Shown: one piece after another, positions 19,595-51,871 of the stretch
Numbering within the stretch: the first letter of the stretch is position 1
Layout of the letters: every line of letters begins with the position of its first letter
Source: Sphingomonadales bacterium
Lineage (GTDB): Bacteria > Pseudomonadota > Alphaproteobacteria > Sphingomonadales > Sphingomonadaceae
Assembly (NCBI GenBank): GCA_025362295.1
Contig: JANYGX010000020.1
Location: 1-64,000 of the forward strand
Direction: 5' to 3'
DNA: 64,000 nucleotides
The notes under the pieces: generated by a model
Told to the model about the DNA's origin: nothing
What the model saw: only the letters and a program-made list of their open reading frames with translations
Databases searched by the model: none
Position numbers and translations under genes: made by a program

Positions 19595-20038
19595 ATGACA
19601 AACACCATCATCCGCGACATTGCTGCCAAAGATCACCCCCACTGGATGATTCTATGGGCTGAATATCTACGATTTTATCGAGAGAAATTGCCTGTTGAAA
19701 TTACCGACGCCACGTGGGCCGTGCTTATGGAAACAGACGGTGCCATAAAAGGGATTGTTGCAGAAAAATCCGGTATAGTTGTTGGTTTCGCACTGTATTT
19801 GTTTCACCCGTCCACGGGGTCGCTGCACTGCAATTGCTATCTTGAAGATTTATATGTCGCTGAAAATTCACGTGGTGGCGGCGTCGCGCGTGCACTCATC
19901 CTTGAAGTCTACAAGCGTGCTGACATTGCCAAGGCGGGCCGGGTGTATTGGCAAACCCAGCAATACAATGCGCCTGCTCGAGCGCTCTATGATACGCTCG
20001 CCAAAGTAACATCCAATGTTCAATATGAGCGTTATTAA
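19595..20038 (+). CDS. GNAT family N-acetyltransferase
   Basis: This 147-residue protein has the GNAT fold. The acetyl-CoA pyrophosphate loop appears as NSRGGGVARALI, preceded by the strand LEDLYVAEN, and the C-terminal part has VYWQTQQYNAPARALYDTL. It resembles small-molecule or amino-acid-modifying acetyltransferases. The substrate cannot be assigned. It begins 7 bp after the propeller gene. Confidence 0.87.
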   Translation: MTNTIIRDIAAKDHPHWMILWAEYLRFYREKLPVEITDATWAVLMETDGAIKGIVAEKSGIVVGFALYLFHPSTGSLHCNCYLEDLYVAENSRGGGVARALILEVYKRADIAKAGRVYWQTQQYNAPARALYDTLAKVTSNVQYERY

Positions 20039-20058: not shown

Positions 20059-20088
20059 GACGCGAAGGTATTAGAATACCTTCGCGTC
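20059..20088. terminator. Hairpin between convergent genes
   Basis: GACGCGAAGGTATT and AATACCTTCGCGTC form a perfect inverted repeat with almost no loop. It lies between the stops of the GNAT gene and the convergent PEP-CTERM gene. No T-tract follows on either strand, so it is at best a weak or Rho-assisted terminator. Confidence 0.5.
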
Positions 20089-20104: not shown

Positions 20105-20824
20105 TTAGGCGGTTATCGCGGATAAAGTGGTTATGTCATCAGAACGACGACGGAGTGCCAGCAAGCTAAGCGCACCAAGTGACAGTAAGGCAAGCGAGCC
20201 TGGCTCAGGCACTGTGGATGGTGCTGTAGAGGCAACGCCGATGCCCAAACCGGCTGTAAAGGCTGTAACACCAAAATAACTATTGAGTGCGCCCGCAGCC
20301 GTGGCGGTGAGCGCCAGAGAAAATGGATACGTGCCTTTGGTTGGGTCGCTGTTAAGCCCAATTGTGAAAAGATCGACAGTGTTCAGTATAGTTCCAGCTT
20401 CATCAACTTTGCCAAAAAGCGTAAGGCTTTGTGTATCAATCAGGAAATCTTCCAGCTTCAGAACCTTTGTGCCGGCTGTGAAAGACAAGCCACTGCCGAC
20501 ATGCTCAATCTGCGCAGCTGGCACACCGGGAACCGGGTTAACCGCAGGATTGATTGACCCACCCGTGATAGGGAAATCGACGATAGGGATACCACCTGTT
20601 GCAGAGACCAGGCTCGCAGAACCCAATAGGCCCACACTCACACCAAGGCTGCTAAGGGTAGGGGCAGCATCTAAACGAACCTCAGTTATTCCACCGGTTA
20701 TTGATGTCGCGGGTGGCGGAACGGCAATAGGAGATGCCATGGCCGCTTTTGAAGCCAGCATTACACTTAAACCAAGTGCAGTAACGGCTATATGCTTGTG
20801 TAGTGTTGTAAAACGAGCGTTCAT
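20105..20824 (-). CDS. PEP-CTERM sorting-domain protein (first)
   Basis: This is a secreted 239-residue protein. The start at NARFTTL is chosen because AAAGG lies 8-9 nt upstream. It has a signal peptide ending near AAMA-SP, a low-complexity body rich in Gly, Thr, Val and Pro, and a C-terminal sorting signal. That signal is VPEPGSLALLSLGALSLLAL followed by RRR and an unusual further 11 residues. The PEP-CTERM tail is recognised by exosortase in bacteria with matching exopolysaccharide systems. No exosortase gene lies in this window. The function of the body is unknown. Confidence 0.85.
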   Translation of the reverse strand: MNARFTTLHKHIAVTALGLSVMLASKAAMASPIAVPPPATSITGGITEVRLDAAPTLSSLGVSVGLLGSASLVSATGGIPIVDFPITGGSINPAVNPVPGVPAAQIEHVGSGLSFTAGTKVLKLEDFLIDTQSLTLFGKVDEAGTILNTVDLFTIGLNSDPTKGTYPFSLALTATAAGALNSYFGVTAFTAGLGIGVASTAPSTVPEPGSLALLSLGALSLLALRRRSDDITTLSAITA

Positions 20825-21026
20825 TCTGTGGCCTTTCAAAAAAATTAAGTATTTGTTAACTACAAATCATAACATTTTTGTATACGAACACACATGAATG
20901 CCAGATGAATAAAAGCATTAATTTATGAATTTTATATTGCAATATTAGTATCTTACGACTAGTCTTTTATATCTAGTCTGATTGATTTAAGTGCTATATT
21001 CTAGGGTTGTGCATTAAGCAAAAACA

Positions 21027-30011: not shown

Positions 30012-31262
30012 ATGCCCCGCCCACCGCTACTAATGCTTGTGCAGCGCTTGCCATACCCTCCTAACAAGGGGGAGAAAATCCGGCACTACAATATACTAAA
30101 GCATCTCGCTGAGAGCCACGACATCTATCTTGGTACGCTGATTGATGATCCTCTTGATTGGGAAAATGTTAAGGGTCTGCAATCGTTAGTCAAGGAAATC
30201 AAAGTCGTTGGCATTCAAAAATCGGCTGCGTATCTGGGTATGGGTGCGCGCTGGCTTGGGGGGATGCCGCTGAGTTTCGGTTTTTTTCAGAATGCTGCAC
30301 TGCAAACCTGGGTAAATGATATTATCAAACGAGTCAGGCCTGAAATTGCTGTGTTATGTTCATCTAACACGGCACCTTATCTAATGCGTACAGGCTACCG
30401 GCCAAAATGCGTGATTGCCGACTTTACGGATGTCGATTCGCAAAAATGGGAAGATTATGTGCCAACCAAGCGCGGACCCATGCGCTGGGTCTACGCCGAA
30501 GAAGCCAGACGGGTGCGGCGTGCAGAAATTCAAATTGCCAGCGCATCTGATGCTGTAACGTTTGTGTCCGCTGAGGAAACGGCACTGTTCAAAACGGTCT
30601 GCCCGACGGTTGCTGACAAAGCCCATGCGGTTAGTAACGGGGTCGATATCGAATATTTTAATCCGGCATTTAAAGCGCCGTCGCCACTGCCGCATGGTCC
30701 GAATTTTGTTTTCACGGGTACGATGGATTACTGGCCGAATGTGAATGCTGTTGTCTGGTTCGCCGAACACGTCTGGCCAAGTGTTCACGCGGCGTTGCCG
30801 GGCGCACATTTTGCTATCGCTGGTGGTAAACCAAATGCTGAGGTGCAAAAACTGTCAACATTACCAGGCATTATTGTAACAGGGCGTATTCCGGATGTAA
30901 GACCGTATATGGCCGCAGCCACCGCCATCGTTGCACCGCTACAGATTGCGCGCGGCATACAAAACAAAGTGCTGGAAGGTATGGCGATGGGCAAGCCCGT
31001 TATCTGTTCTCCCGGTGCCTTGACGGGCATTGCCGCTATTCCCAGCACGCATATCTGGCAGGCGGATAGCCCTGCGACCTGGCAGGATGCCTGTACTGCG
31101 CTGGCAACTCAAAAAGATATCTCAGACGCGCTTGGAAAAGCTGCCCGGCAGTTTGTTGTGGACCATTTTAGCTGGTCATCCGTGCTCAAGCCGCTTGATG
31201 ATTTGATCAAACCCTTTCTGCTGCAACGCACCAATTCTGACGTGTCAAGTGGCGAAAAATGA
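30012..31262 (+). CDS. TIGR03087-like PEP-CTERM/XrtA-associated glycosyltransferase
   Basis: This is a GT4-fold sugar transferase of 416 residues. The N-terminal domain starts with LVQRLPYPPNKGEKIRHYN, a hallmark of the TIGR03087 group linked to exosortase/PEP-CTERM systems. The C-terminal donor domain has VSNGVDIEYF, VFTGTMDYWPNVNAV and the ARGIQNKVLEGMAMGKPVI segment that holds the nucleotide-sugar-binding glutamates. It probably adds a sugar in exopolysaccharide synthesis. The two PEP-CTERM proteins in this window support the association, although the exosortase itself is elsewhere. Confidence 0.82.
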   Translation: MPRPPLLMLVQRLPYPPNKGEKIRHYNILKHLAESHDIYLGTLIDDPLDWENVKGLQSLVKEIKVVGIQKSAAYLGMGARWLGGMPLSFGFFQNAALQTWVNDIIKRVRPEIAVLCSSNTAPYLMRTGYRPKCVIADFTDVDSQKWEDYVPTKRGPMRWVYAEEARRVRRAEIQIASASDAVTFVSAEETALFKTVCPTVADKAHAVSNGVDIEYFNPAFKAPSPLPHGPNFVFTGTMDYWPNVNAVVWFAEHVWPSVHAALPGAHFAIAGGKPNAEVQKLSTLPGIIVTGRIPDVRPYMAAATAIVAPLQIARGIQNKVLEGMAMGKPVICSPGALTGIAAIPSTHIWQADSPATWQDACTALATQKDISDALGKAARQFVVDHFSWSSVLKPLDDLIKPFLLQRTNSDVSSGEK

Positions 31263-31465
31263 AAAAAGCCATTGCGGCGACTTTGTGGTGTCGATAACAG
31301 AATGATTGTGTCAAAAAAGTTGTTGAGCATGTATTATGCTTATTGCTAAAAAATAACTTGCTGATGCAATGCTCCTGAGGAGGGGGCGACCTGCCATGGC
31401 GTAACGCGAGCAAGTTTTTCGTTGCGCTTAATAATAATAGTGAAGCTGGAGGAAAAACCTCACAC

Positions 31466-32122
31466 ATGTCTTATGCTGATAGAAAAGAATTTGGCCCACG
31501 GCAGGCAACAGCGTTGGGTTTATCCCTGCTGTTGATTAGCTTTTTAAGCTGGGCATTTATCAACGGCCTTGTCGTCAAGGTTATGAAAATTGCTGTGGGT
31601 CCAGTGAAGCTGATCAAACCGAAAGATTTACCACCACCACCTGATACCCCACCACCGCCACCACCAAAATTGGATGAAGTGCCGCCTTACGTGCCGCCAC
31701 CTGAGGTTGATGTGAATGTGCCTCAAGTGAATACAGCGCCAGCTATACAAACGCAAAACGTGGTTGAGAAGCCAAAAGAGCGTGTTGTGGAACCGCCTCC
31801 GCCGCCGCCTCCACCGCCTGTGGCTCACAAAATTATAGCAGCTGATGCATCAAGTGTGGCCAAGGCAATCAGGAATTCTGCTGATTATTACCCACCTCGC
31901 GCCATAGAACTCAAACAGCAGGGCACGTCTGTATGCTCTTACATTGTGCCCGTTACTGGTCGAACCCAGGATGCTAAATGTGAAGGTGGTAGTGACTTGC
32001 TTGATCGCGCAGCCGAGAAGCTGATTAACAATCAAAAAGTCAAACCAGCGACCGAAGATGGTACACCAATTGCCACATCAGCGAGAGTGAAGGTCACATG
32101 GGTATTGCCTAAAGATGAATAA
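31466..32122 (+). CDS. tonB: TonB energy-transducing protein
   Basis: TonB carries proton-motive energy from ExbB/ExbD to outer-membrane receptors. The 218-residue product has one N-terminal membrane anchor (ALGLSLLLISFLSWAFING) and a proline-rich periplasmic spacer with PPPPDTPPPPPPK and EPPPPPPPPP runs. A C-terminal TonB domain contains YYPPRAIELKQQGTSVCSYIV. GGAGG stands rather far (13 nt) from the ATG. It heads the exbB-exbD-exbD operon. Confidence 0.93.
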   Translation: MSYADRKEFGPRQATALGLSLLLISFLSWAFINGLVVKVMKIAVGPVKLIKPKDLPPPPDTPPPPPPKLDEVPPYVPPPEVDVNVPQVNTAPAIQTQNVVEKPKERVVEPPPPPPPPPVAHKIIAADASSVAKAIRNSADYYPPRAIELKQQGTSVCSYIVPVTGRTQDAKCEGGSDLLDRAAEKLINNQKVKPATEDGTPIATSARVKVTWVLPKDE

Positions 32123-32186
32123 AATAATTTCATTACAACTCTAAACAATGCACCGAATTAAATTGATAAACGAAGGATACACAACT

Positions 32187-32999
32187 ATGAAAAACAAAAT
32201 TTCCAATCTGGTTTTGAGCACATCTGTACTCGCATTTACATCGCTTCCGGCCTTTGCGCAGGATGTTGCAGCGCCTGCTGCAGCGGCTGCCACATCTGAT
32301 GCCGCCGATCAATTCGGTTTTGGTCCTGCCATGAAACAGGGCGGATTGCTGACACAATCGACAGTCGGCATCATGGCCATCATGTCCATTGCATCGCTAT
32401 ATATTATTTTCACGCGACTTTGGGATCAACGCGATATTCTAAACCAGTCCAAAGAACTTGATAAAAAATTCTGGACCGCTGGCAGCATCCGCGAGGGCGC
32501 AGACAAGCTCGACAAGAACAGTGCATTCCGTCAAATCGTTGATGATGGTATGCGCGCCGCGCAACACCATGAAGGTAAATTGACAGACAAGATTGACCGT
32601 CACGAGTGGATCACGATGTCGCTGCAACGTTCGGTCAACAGCATCACCGGTCGTTTACAAAACGGTTTGGCTCTTCTGGCTACAGTGGGTTCGACGGCAC
32701 CGTTTGTCGGTCTGTTTGGTACGGTGGTCGGTATTTACCGCGCGTTGATCAAAATTGCTGAAGCTGGTCAGGCCTCCATCGACAAAGTGGCTGGCCCGGT
32801 CGGTGAAGCTTTGATCATGACGGCTATCGGTCTTGCTGTCGCTGTGCCTGCGGTTATGGGTTATAACTGGCTCATTCGTCGCAACAAAACAGTGATCGAC
32901 AAAATCAATCAGTTTTCAAGCGATGTGCATGCCTTCCTGATGTCCGGTGCACGTGTGCCTTCAGGCTCACCAGCCATGGCTGCACCAATCAAAAAATAA
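32187..32999 (+). CDS. exbB: ExbB proton-channel protein (MotA/TolQ/ExbB family)
   Basis: The start at KNKISNLVL is preferred because AAGGA lies upstream and a signal peptide (LVLSTSVLAFTSLPAFAQ) begins directly there. The 270-residue product has an N-terminal periplasmic Ala-rich stretch and three membrane segments. The proton-channel region reads LLATVGSTAPFVGLFGTVVGIYRAL. ExbB pentamers surround ExbD dimers and power TonB. A strong hairpin follows the stop by 9 bp. Confidence 0.94.
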   Translation: MKNKISNLVLSTSVLAFTSLPAFAQDVAAPAAAAATSDAADQFGFGPAMKQGGLLTQSTVGIMAIMSIASLYIIFTRLWDQRDILNQSKELDKKFWTAGSIREGADKLDKNSAFRQIVDDGMRAAQHHEGKLTDKIDRHEWITMSLQRSVNSITGRLQNGLALLATVGSTAPFVGLFGTVVGIYRALIKIAEAGQASIDKVAGPVGEALIMTAIGLAVAVPAVMGYNWLIRRNKTVIDKINQFSSDVHAFLMSGARVPSGSPAMAAPIKK

Positions 33000-33007
33000 T
33001 ATGTCTA

Positions 33008-33038
33008 GGGGCAGATACAATTAATTTGTATCTGCCCC
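33008..33038 (+). promoter_or_regulatory. Intercistronic hairpin between exbB and exbD
   Basis: GGGGCAGATACAA and TTGTATCTGCCCC pair perfectly over 13 bp around a TTAAT loop. It starts 9 bp after the exbB stop and ends about 30 bp before the exbD start. No T-tract follows, so it is not a classical terminator. It could protect the 3' end of an upstream tonB-exbB transcript or act as a partial terminator, giving more ExbB than ExbD. Confidence 0.7.
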
Positions 33039-33067
33039 GTTGATCTCAAGTTCAAGGAGTTTGGCCC

Positions 33068-33529
33068 ATGGCCATGAGTATGCCAGCCGAAGAAGAAGAC
33101 GGCGCAATGTCTAACATCAACACAACACCGCTTGTTGATGTTATGCTCGTTCTTCTCATAATCTTTCTCATCACCATTCCGGCTGCCATTCAGACGGTAA
33201 AGGTGCAACTGCCCAAGGTGAACAACCAGCCCACAACCACCAAGCCGGAAAATATCATTGTCGGCGTGGATCAGGACGGTGCCTATTACTGGAACGCCTA
33301 TCGCATGGATGGTGGCAAGGACGCACTCAAAGCGCGCATCAAGGATCGTGTGCTTGCGGCCTGCCCGGGTGGGCATTGTACTGATATAAAAAACCTGCCT
33401 GAGGTTCACCTGCGTGCCGATGTCAATACCAATTGGTCATTTATAGGTGCAGCCATTGCTGTTGCCCAAAGCGTCGGCATCCAGAAGGTGGCTTTCATTT
33501 CAGAACAAGATCGGCCCATGGCTCGCTAA
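33068..33529 (+). CDS. exbD: ExbD/TolR family protein (first copy)
   Basis: The 153-residue protein has a single membrane helix with the proton-path aspartate in NTTPLVDVMLVLLIIFLITIP. A periplasmic domain follows, ending IAVAQSVGIQKVAFISEQ. The sequence CPGGHC in the periplasmic part could form a disulfide, which the second copy lacks. AAGGAG is 8 nt before the ATG. Confidence 0.93.
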   Translation: MAMSMPAEEEDGAMSNINTTPLVDVMLVLLIIFLITIPAAIQTVKVQLPKVNNQPTTTKPENIIVGVDQDGAYYWNAYRMDGGKDALKARIKDRVLAACPGGHCTDIKNLPEVHLRADVNTNWSFIGAAIAVAQSVGIQKVAFISEQDRPMAR

Positions 33530-33566
33530 CACAGCCTGGCGCTATTAATTCGAGAGGACTTTAACT

Positions 33567-33986
33567 ATGGCAATGGCATCAGGTACTGCAGAAGGCGAGC
33601 CAATGGCCGAAATGAACACGACGCCACTGATTGACGTCATGCTCGTGCTGCTCATTATGTTCATTATCAGCATTCCACCGCAAACTCACGCTTCAAAGAT
33701 AGACATGCCGCCGCCAACACCGCCGACGGATATCAAACCGCCCAAGCACACGATTGGTGTGACCTTTGAAAATCAGATTCTCTGGGACAACGCGCCGGTT
33801 ACTTTTGAGCAGATGAACACGTATCTGACGGCTGAAGGCCAGAAAGCTGAAGAACAGCAGGCCGAAATTCATATCAATCCTGATGGCTTCTCCAAATATG
33901 ATGTAACTGCAAAAATAGTTGCGGCCGTTCAACTGGCCAATATCAAAAAGATGGGTTTTGAGGACAACCAACAATACGCACAGTAG
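33567..33986 (+). CDS. exbD: ExbD/TolR family protein (second copy)
   Basis: The 139-residue protein has the ExbD membrane helix NTTPLIDVMLVLLIMFIISIP with its aspartate and a periplasmic domain. It differs clearly from the upstream copy in the periplasmic part (PPPTPPTDIKPPKHTIGV), so the duplication is old. Paired exbD genes after exbB are typical of Ton systems in sphingomonads, caulobacters and xanthomonads, where one ExbD2 can be specific to certain receptors. Confidence 0.93.
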   Translation: MAMASGTAEGEPMAEMNTTPLIDVMLVLLIMFIISIPPQTHASKIDMPPPTPPTDIKPPKHTIGVTFENQILWDNAPVTFEQMNTYLTAEGQKAEEQQAEIHINPDGFSKYDVTAKIVAAVQLANIKKMGFEDNQQYAQ

Positions 33987-34005
33987 TGCTAAATCTCTTG
34001 CGTCA

Positions 34006-34024
34006 TTCCGGACTTGATCCGGAA
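34006..34024. repeat. Dispersed palindromic repeat (GTCATTCCGGA type)
   Basis: TTCCGGA and TCCGGAA pair around CTTGA within GCGTCATTCCGGACTTGATC, a widespread alphaproteobacterial extragenic motif. It lies after exbD, in the gap before the TPR-protein gene. A related half is seen near 63323 (GTCATTCCGGAATCC). Confidence 0.55.
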
Positions 34025-34201
34025 CCTCAGACCGAGGTTTCGTATTTTAACGATTATGCAACATGGCCTGAAGTTTTCGGTCATATAAGGAATGCTGCAT
34101 TTACACATCTCATCTCTTGTATTCCTTGGTAATATATATTAATTTTCAGTTCATCCGCTAGCGTTATTGATTGCGTTTGAATAACAAAAAAGGAAAACCA
34201 C

Positions 34202-35455
34202 ATGAACAATTTTAAATGCCGTGTTGCCATTTTGCTGCTCTCCAGCGTTACAGCTATATCAATCGTGCTGCCTCTTCAGGCTGCGGATAAAAAGCAGGAA
34301 GCATCGGCACCAAAAGGCAAGTTTACTCCGGCAGTGCAGAAGGTTCTGGTGGATGTGCAAAAGCTTACCAATGATAAAAATTTTGAAGCCGCCAAAACTA
34401 AACTTGCAGAGGCAGAGGCCGTGCATCCGCGAAACAGTTACGATGATTTTTTCATCGCTCAATTACGCATTAATATAGGCCAATCTCTTAAAGACACCGC
34501 TTATACCAGACCAGCTCTTGAAACATTTGCCACCAATGAATTTACGCCAGCAGATACGCGCAAAACTGTTGTGACCATTTTGATGCAGACAACCTATCAG
34601 GACCGGGATTATGCAAAAGCAAAATCCTACGCCGACACGCTGACCAAGCTGGAGCCAACAAACCCTGAGCCTTCGCTGCTGCTTGGCCAGATTTATCAAA
34701 ATGATAAAAACTACGCTGAGGCTGATAATAATTTCAGTACAGCGATCCGGTTGACAGAAGCTTCAGGTAAACCGGTGCCGGAAGATTATTATGTGCGGCT
34801 GGCTGAATCGCGTCAGCAGGCTAAGTCACCCCAGACTGAAGACGTGTTGCGCCAACTGGTTTCTAAATACCCAACAGCAAAAAATTGGCAATATTTGATT
34901 TCCTCATTTCAGGTGAGGACAAAACTTGCCGGTGGTCCTGGTCTTGACGTTTACCGGTTGATGGCTGTTACAGGCACACTCACCAAGTCTGACGACTATA
35001 TAGAATATGCAGAGTCAGCAAAATCAGCCGGTACACCAGGCGAAGCAAAATCTGTGCTCGAAAAAGCCACGGCTGCAGGTTCAATTTCGGCGCGCGATAA
35101 AGCCACTGCAGCATCCGATCTCACGATTTTCCGCGCACTTGCAGCAGCTGACCAGAAAACTTTAGGGGCCTTTGCCATTCAGGCCAAAGCATCACCCGGT
35201 GGTGATCTTGCTGTCATCGCCGGTAATTCTTACTTGGGTTATGGCGACAATGCCAAAGCGATAGAACTGTACAAGCTTGCGATCAGCAAAGGTGGATTTG
35301 TAAAGAAAACAGCGGCTGTGGCCAATCTGCGTCTTGGTATCGCGCAGTTCAGGGCTGGTGACAAACCAGCAGCCTTGGCGACCTTTGCCGGATTTAAGTC
35401 AAGCGACGCCAACATGAATGATCTCGCAGCGTTGTGGGCTATTGCCATAAAGTGA
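34202..35455 (+). CDS. Periplasmic TPR protein of the TonB/ExbBD locus
   Basis: The 417-residue product has a signal peptide (RVAILLLSSVTAISIVLPLQA) and a tetratricopeptide-type solenoid. Units include YAKAKSYADTLTKLEPTNPE, LLGQIYQNDKNYAEADNNF and YLGYGDNAKAIELYKLA. TPR proteins are often encoded just after TonB-ExbB-ExbD-ExbD in alphaproteobacteria and are proposed to assist Ton-dependent uptake; the exact role is not established. Its C-terminus is shared with the stand-alone protein at 21087-22196. AAAAAGGAAAA precedes the ATG. Confidence 0.87.
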   Translation: MNNFKCRVAILLLSSVTAISIVLPLQAADKKQEASAPKGKFTPAVQKVLVDVQKLTNDKNFEAAKTKLAEAEAVHPRNSYDDFFIAQLRINIGQSLKDTAYTRPALETFATNEFTPADTRKTVVTILMQTTYQDRDYAKAKSYADTLTKLEPTNPEPSLLLGQIYQNDKNYAEADNNFSTAIRLTEASGKPVPEDYYVRLAESRQQAKSPQTEDVLRQLVSKYPTAKNWQYLISSFQVRTKLAGGPGLDVYRLMAVTGTLTKSDDYIEYAESAKSAGTPGEAKSVLEKATAAGSISARDKATAASDLTIFRALAAADQKTLGAFAIQAKASPGGDLAVIAGNSYLGYGDNAKAIELYKLAISKGGFVKKTAAVANLRLGIAQFRAGDKPAALATFAGFKSSDANMNDLAALWAIAIK

Positions 35456-51541: not shown

Positions 51542-51871
51542 GTGGTCTTCTCCATGTTACCGATTGGCTGATATCTGATCATTCAGACACCCCTCCGGCT
51601 TGCTTCGAAAGATCAAATACTTAATTTATTTGATAGTAATCTCATAAACGTATTCAATATTATTGCAAGAAATATGTTTTTAACGAATGATTTCAGTTGT
51701 TAAACCAATCTTCCAAATCCAATGCTGAAAATTTTATCATCATAAGCTTTACAGCCTTCGTTGAGATGACGGCCAATACTCAGATCATGAATTGGGCGAG
51801 CACCCGTTAGAGTGACCTAAAAAAACCAACCCGATGAGGGGTTGGTTTTTTATACATTCATAGAATAACAA
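51542..51871. other. 330-bp intergenic region upstream of rpsF
   Basis: No gene is seen. It holds the rpsF leader, an AT-rich hairpin at 51612-51634 (ATCAAATA and TATTTGAT), a half-copy of the GAGATGAC extragenic repeat near 51750-51772, and the terminator of the HU-like gene at its right end. I could not recognise an S6:S18-binding leader motif. Confidence 0.55.
51821..51851 (-). terminator. Bidirectional Rho-independent terminator after the HU-like gene
   Basis: CCAACCC and GGGTTGG pair, flanked by A-runs on one side and T-runs on the other (AAAAAACC and GGTTTTTT). It is 20 bp past the HU-like stop. The symmetric A/T flanks let it work on both strands. Confidence 0.85.

Follow-up and report, generated by a model that had tools for sequence, protein, structure and literature searches.

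A strong hairpin without a U-tract lies just past exbB in a tonB-exbB-exbD1-exbD2 operon, and it probably serves as an intercistronic mRNA 3' stabiliser of the kind known from malE-malF, puf and the SRPS operons. In most of the relatives examined a hairpin is kept at this place despite a complete change of letters, which suggests that its shape is what counts, and the combination of free sequence, fixed shape and place, a strong stem and no U-tract fits a hairpin that stops exonucleases where the exbB message ends. By this mechanism, the four-gene transcript would be cleaved or trimmed beyond exbB, the hairpin would halt 3'-to-5' exonucleases (of the PNPase or RNase II type), and the tonB-exbB fragment would persist while exbD sequence was degraded. 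A single promoter might thereby yield more ExbB than ExbD, with ExbB in excess over the ExbD2 protein and ExbD1 on either side of the hairpin depending on the lineage. The motor itself is assembled from five ExbB and two ExbD subunits (ExbB5:ExbD2).

The window (the whole stretch of 64,000 nucleotides that was analysed) carries the four genes of this nutrient-uptake operon in the same direction (Table 1); exbB has an earlier in-frame ATG at 32148. The sequence-only reading had described a perfect stem of 13 bp with a 5-nt loop and no T-tract between exbB and exbD, and nothing similar between the two exbD genes, and both descriptions were borne out (arms of 13 nt each, complementarity 100%). 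The gap from 33000 to 33067 folds at -28.2 kcal/mol (z -5.1, 0/200 shuffles as stable) and the hairpin alone at -23 to -25 kcal/mol; the stem is perfect even though the window has a GC content of 49%. Since the stem ends well before the Shine-Dalgarno-like stretch of exbD1, the hairpin does not hide it. No T-tract follows the stem (GTTGATCT), so that the pairing of hairpin and T-tract that marks an intrinsic terminator is lacking, and a simple terminator in the window was rejected, as the terminator scan of the window did not list this hairpin. Downstream of exbD2, at 34006-34024, lies a palindrome (TTCCGGACTTGATCCGGAA) with two more one-mismatch copies in the genome.

Table 1. Features of the tonB-exbB-exbD1-exbD2 operon, in positions of the window.
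Feature	Positions	Strand	Description
tonB	31466..32122	+	218 aa, first gene of the operon; Pfam TonB_C 3.5e-11
exbB	about 32187..32999	+	270 aa from ATG 32187; Pfam MotA_ExbB 1.1e-31
Spacer, exbB stop to stem	33000..33007	+	8 nt
Hairpin	33008..33038	+	13-bp perfect stem 33008-33020/33026-33038, loop 33021-33025 (5 nt)
exbD1 leader	33039..33067	+	AAGGAG Shine-Dalgarno-like stretch 33054-33059 (by eye), outside the stem
exbD1	33068..33529	+	153 aa; Pfam ExbD 6.2e-21
exbD1-exbD2 gap	33530..33566	+	37 nt, hairpin-free
exbD2	33567..33986	+	139 aa; Pfam ExbD 6.6e-22

The junction was then compared across the family, taken to be the Sphingomonadaceae from its size and from the operon known in Sphingobium sp. 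SYK-6 (PMC8599685). With exbD1 as the query, 198 other family genomes were searched, and the loci of the 89 with a match at E 2.6e-27 or better were fetched; 9 of the remaining 109 entered later via exbB. A hairpin was scored by position, as a single structure of -15 kcal/mol or below beginning at most 25 nt after the stop codon. Under this rule a hairpin follows exbB in 72/90 family genomes (window included) and exbD1 in 14/90, 12 of the latter having it only there, while two genomes have one at both junctions (one of them, L055, is marginal, with -15.7 kcal/mol in a 38-nt gap) and 6/90 at neither; 84/90 have a hairpin somewhere between exbB and exbD2. The stems after exbB commonly reach about -30 kcal/mol, and among the gaps listed their sequences are unrelated and differ between genera; just 2/72 are followed by at least five T in 8 nt. 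Further family genomes, taken from the 30 best exbB loci, bear the hairpin after exbB in 13/13 cases, as do two more (L251 and L253, 2/2) and all rows of two genera (21/21, 6 of them also among the 90), which brings the total to 102/120 distinct family genomes. Every row of a seven-species genus (g29) has it.

The earlier proposal that such a hairpin gives more ExbB than both ExbD proteins therefore does not hold as a general rule, because it lies only after exbD1 in 12/90 genomes; the part that stands is an arrangement with ExbB upstream and ExbD2 downstream, which fits 84/90. Of the properties that define a stabiliser, a stable stem-loop in the gap past the upstream gene and the lack of a U-tract are found in the window, and a structure under selection, as judged by covariation and positional conservation, is found in the relatives and not for the window's own stem.

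An ExbB tree (90 rows from the family and 3 from the outgroup, midpoint-rooted, with a long branch for the window and several forks left open) contains one clade of 63 rows in which the hairpin follows exbB in 63/63, one of them having a hairpin after exbD1 as well. The other 27 family rows, among which the outgroup rows fall, are mixed: a hairpin follows only exbD1 in 12, only exbB in 8 (including the window), both genes in 1 and neither in 6. Neither hairpin is present in L098 and L100, the window's two nearest relatives in this tree, so that the hairpin of the window was either kept or regained. Conservation of the pairing, which had been put forward as a check, is thus found at the level of the family (72/90, and covariation in a genus of 14 species) and fails in the two sister rows of the window. 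It is possible, and we say so tentatively, that the hairpin is a family-wide element defined by structure only, which stays between exbB and exbD2 as its sequence changes and which has moved between the two junctions such that exbD1 is grouped with exbB or with exbD2 by lineage. If this were true, the place of the hairpin would tell which of the ExbD paralogues the cell makes abundantly, and the series would be a readable record of how Ton motors with two ExbD proteins are built.

Covariation was assessed in an alignment of 14 species of one genus, for which RNAalifold draws a stem of 10 bp. Paired cells amounted to 96.4%, compared with 88.2% in shuffles and 49-61% when the structure was slid along the alignment, a comparison that favours the drawn structure over its slid versions, as it was derived from the same alignment. 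Cells changed on both sides numbered 9 against 2.0 expected (0/500 shuffles as high), pairs changed on both sides 4 against 1.6 (8/500) and further pair types 14 against 11.7 (29/500), and the covariation score was 0.366 against 0.217 in shuffles (0/500), although related species can exceed shuffles without any structure. Given that origin of the drawn structure and the relatedness of the species, we regard this covariation as support and not as proof. Two closely related pairs show clean compensation: between L076 and L087, 3 double changes kept the pairing and 0 broke it in either direction, and between L101 and L103 the kept and broken double changes numbered 4 and 0 one way and 3 and 1 the other way. 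With unaided alignment of species in pairs (190 ordered pairs, most of them from two genera; 17/21 genus groups yielded pairs of at least 60% identity) the signal was noisy and mixed, with double changes keeping the pairing in 58% versus 41% when slid, and single changes in 39% versus 45%.

The junction is not a repeat. A dispersed element or REP palindrome was rejected, as the 108-bp junction matches only itself in the 2.59-Mb genome, and the 13-nt arm does not recur exactly and matches three other places with one mismatch. A known Rfam element was likewise rejected, with 0 matches up to E 1 in the region 31000-35000 of the window; the loci of 11 relatives gave 0 matches at the gathering score. 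Perfect stems of at least 13 bp occur at five places in the window (1460, 1525, 20059, 33008 and 51820), compared with a mean of 0.0 in 20 first-order simulations of 64 kb, and the exbB-exbD1 hairpin is therefore one among several strong stems. As for the others, the right arm of the stem at 51820 ends in TTTTTT and is terminator-like. Tandem strong perfect hairpins of 17 bp and 14 bp (1460-1497 and 1525-1560) follow an ORF at 565-1452 and adjoin a short ORF at 1577-1918 that, by eye, resembles a fragment of an IS5-type transposase. The 13-bp hairpin at 20059-20088 is flanked by two convergent ORFs, 19595-20038 and the minus-strand 20105-20839; the latter shows, by eye, a PEP-CTERM-like stretch towards its end (VPEPGSLALLSLGALSLLALRRR).

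The TolQ-TolR motor has a subunit ratio similar to that of ExbB-ExbD. At the paralogous tolQ-tolR junction, a hairpin of -15 kcal/mol or below was found in 2/30 loci and was absent from 28/30 (30 loci listed from 39 genomes searched, the window's own included), so that a motor of this type does not require one. In the window's genome tolQ and tolR are 2 nt apart, and a third ExbD-like gene is preceded by an 11-nt gap. On the reverse strand at L131 (own genome, C17, 7155-9319), a further ExbD-like gene comes after a 583-aa ORF that resembles ExbB, by eye, in its 3' part; this would be a separate motor system. Three consecutive ExbD-like matches lie on one strand of G018:C115 (at 1488, 2036 and 2616), and part of the family may carry three exbD-like genes instead of two. 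Outside the family, three relatives from another family of the order have exbB-exbD gaps of 2-7 nt, and no hairpin of -18 kcal/mol or below was seen after exbB in 15 loci of 14 genomes from other families of the class. The nearest values were -16.8 kcal/mol after exbB in L249 and -16.5 kcal/mol after the first exbD in L254; in all, 0/18 loci outside the family reach -18 and 1/18 reaches -15. A possible stem after exbB in a Parvibaculum MAG (L007) does not rise above shuffles (26/200 as stable), and no exbB match was obtained for the named loci L009-L011.

The spacing of these genes bears on the main rival explanation, which we consider unlikely, namely that the hairpin is a translational insulator that separates exbB termination from exbD1 initiation and blocks coupling or ribosome run-on, with the Shine-Dalgarno stretch left single-stranded. 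The window stem ends before that stretch, the median distance from stem end to the exbD1 ATG is 54 nt in 72 genomes, and the exbB-exbD1 gap is always short (22-45 nt) in the 18/90 genomes without a hairpin after exbB, as expected of coupled pairs; most tolQ-tolR pairs, too, overlap or lie directly adjacent (median gap across 30 loci 0.5 nt), as coupled pairs should. However, a long gap by itself would uncouple the two genes, and insulation leaves unexplained both the stems of about -30 kcal/mol and the two-sided changes that keep the pairing.

Control junctions were drawn from the same loci: a simple gene-calling script was run on 87 of them, and same-direction gaps of 40-150 nt were compared. 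Of 63 exbB-exbD1 junctions recovered, 55 fell in this range; the cut omits the short, hairpin-less exbB-exbD1 gaps, and the unselected figure is the 72/90 given above. A hairpin of -18 kcal/mol or below was present in 52/55 exbB-exbD1 gaps, compared with 78/210 (37%) of the remaining gaps between same-direction genes (Fisher p 8e-16) and 25/55 tonB-exbB gaps (Fisher p 7e-9); neither p-value is corrected for relatedness. As GC-rich gaps fold easily, this threshold is often reached in shuffles (41-45% of shuffled exbB-exbD1 gaps). At -26 kcal/mol the contrast was sharper (39/55 for exbB-exbD1 versus 3.6% of shuffles, 30/210 for control gaps versus 3.7% of shuffles), and an uninterrupted stem (at least 9 pairs, at least 6 of them G-C) occurred in 40/55 versus 32/210. 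Hairpins are also enriched in the tonB-exbB gap of the relatives (10/55 at -26 or below versus 0.2% of shuffles), with a T-rich tail in 6/25; no inverted repeat was listed for this gap in the window (32123-32186).

The same loci speak to the quite unlikely alternative that the hairpin is a partial terminator or attenuator, where RNA polymerase would pause or stop, perhaps with Rho, and exbD transcription would be lowered. The absence of a T-tract is not decisive in these genomes: 238 convergent gene ends held 174 strong hairpins, of which 7 were followed by at least five T in 8 nt, and because these hairpins also lack T-tracts we dropped that argument against termination for the family. Terminator-like motifs are, however, no commoner in exbB-exbD1 gaps (3/55) than in controls (20/210), the terminator scan passes over the window hairpin, and the four genes of Sphingobium sp. 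SYK-6 are reported to form one operon (PMC6874591, PMC8599685). On balance, our analysis favours processing and stabilisation over attenuation. A processing site of the opposite effect, with RNase III cutting in the stem or RNase E beside it so as to destabilise exbD and not to protect exbB, appears very improbable: the perfect double helix and the second hairpin that follows the post-exbB stem in many relatives would suit it, but the 13-bp stem is on the short side for RNase III. For the stabiliser, an endonuclease site would be expected downstream of the stem; the RNase E-like motif RNWUU occurs there in 36/71 gaps, slightly above the 25.1 expected. That the hairpin lacks a function, being merely GC-rich DNA between genes or else a mobile palindrome, is hardly credible, for although control gaps (78/210) and shuffles (41-45%) often reach -18, the excess at -26 (39/55 versus 3.6%), a perfect single-copy stem in a window of 49% GC, the unrelated sequences that relatives carry at this position and the covariation all argue against it.

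Against the stabiliser we count the hairpin-less L098 and L100, the 2/30 at tolQ-tolR, an RNWUU count barely above expectation, the mixed signal of the unaided pairs, and hairpins of -18 kcal/mol or below in 37% of control gaps.

How a single operon can supply the subunits of a motor in different quantities is a question of general interest. About 120 genomes form a natural series in which the operon is kept while the hairpin is free in sequence and switched in position or lost, which makes the stoichiometry hypothesis testable by comparison of species. The operon of Sphingobium sp. SYK-6 (tonB1-exbB1-exbD1-exbD2) has the same gene order, and a similar organisation is reported in the Sphingomonadaceae listed there (PMC8599685, PMC6874591). 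None of its four genes could reportedly be disrupted, so any effect of the hairpin would bear on an important uptake system (PMC8599685). The main text of that paper does not contain the words hairpin, mRNA, stoichiometry, terminator or intergenic (PMC8599685). Literature searches on exbB and exbD together with structure or RNA, and broader ones, covered few subscription papers and gave, among the hits listed, no title or opening of an abstract on this hairpin; PMC2245857 proved unrelated. The kind of element is known; this member, and its conservation across a family with switching between junctions, appear to be undescribed in the literature searched.

Deletion of the hairpin region of Rhodobacter puf was reportedly studied by Klug in 1987, to go by the title. 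Like the exb operon, puf belongs to an alphaproteobacterium, encodes membrane complexes whose subunits are unequal in number and has an intercistronic hairpin region (PMC6238624), although its genes are those of photosynthesis. The SRPS operons, described in Clostridium and E. coli, likewise have an intergenic stem-loop after a gene, whose stability is reported to set the transcript or protein ratio (PMC8219983, PMC10667835). In a survey of differential decay in E. coli, 26/34 gene pairs with a stabilised 5' gene are reported to have a 3' end just past a stable hairpin without a U-tract, and tatA, whose product far outnumbers TatBC, is among the reported cases of differential operon decay (PMC5927463). 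As in malE-malF and these pairs, a strong hairpin lacking a U-tract follows an upstream gene whose product is needed in excess (PMC5927463). Unlike in E. coli, where 17/26 such structures are reported to lie inside the downstream gene (PMC5927463), the hairpin described here is intergenic, and its sequence turns over completely while its position is kept. Its stability of -23 to -25 kcal/mol is comparable to that of the -25.4 kcal/mol intergenic hairpin that, in a reporter with an RNase E site, is reported to have raised the upstream protein over a hairpin of -9.3 kcal/mol (PMC10667835).
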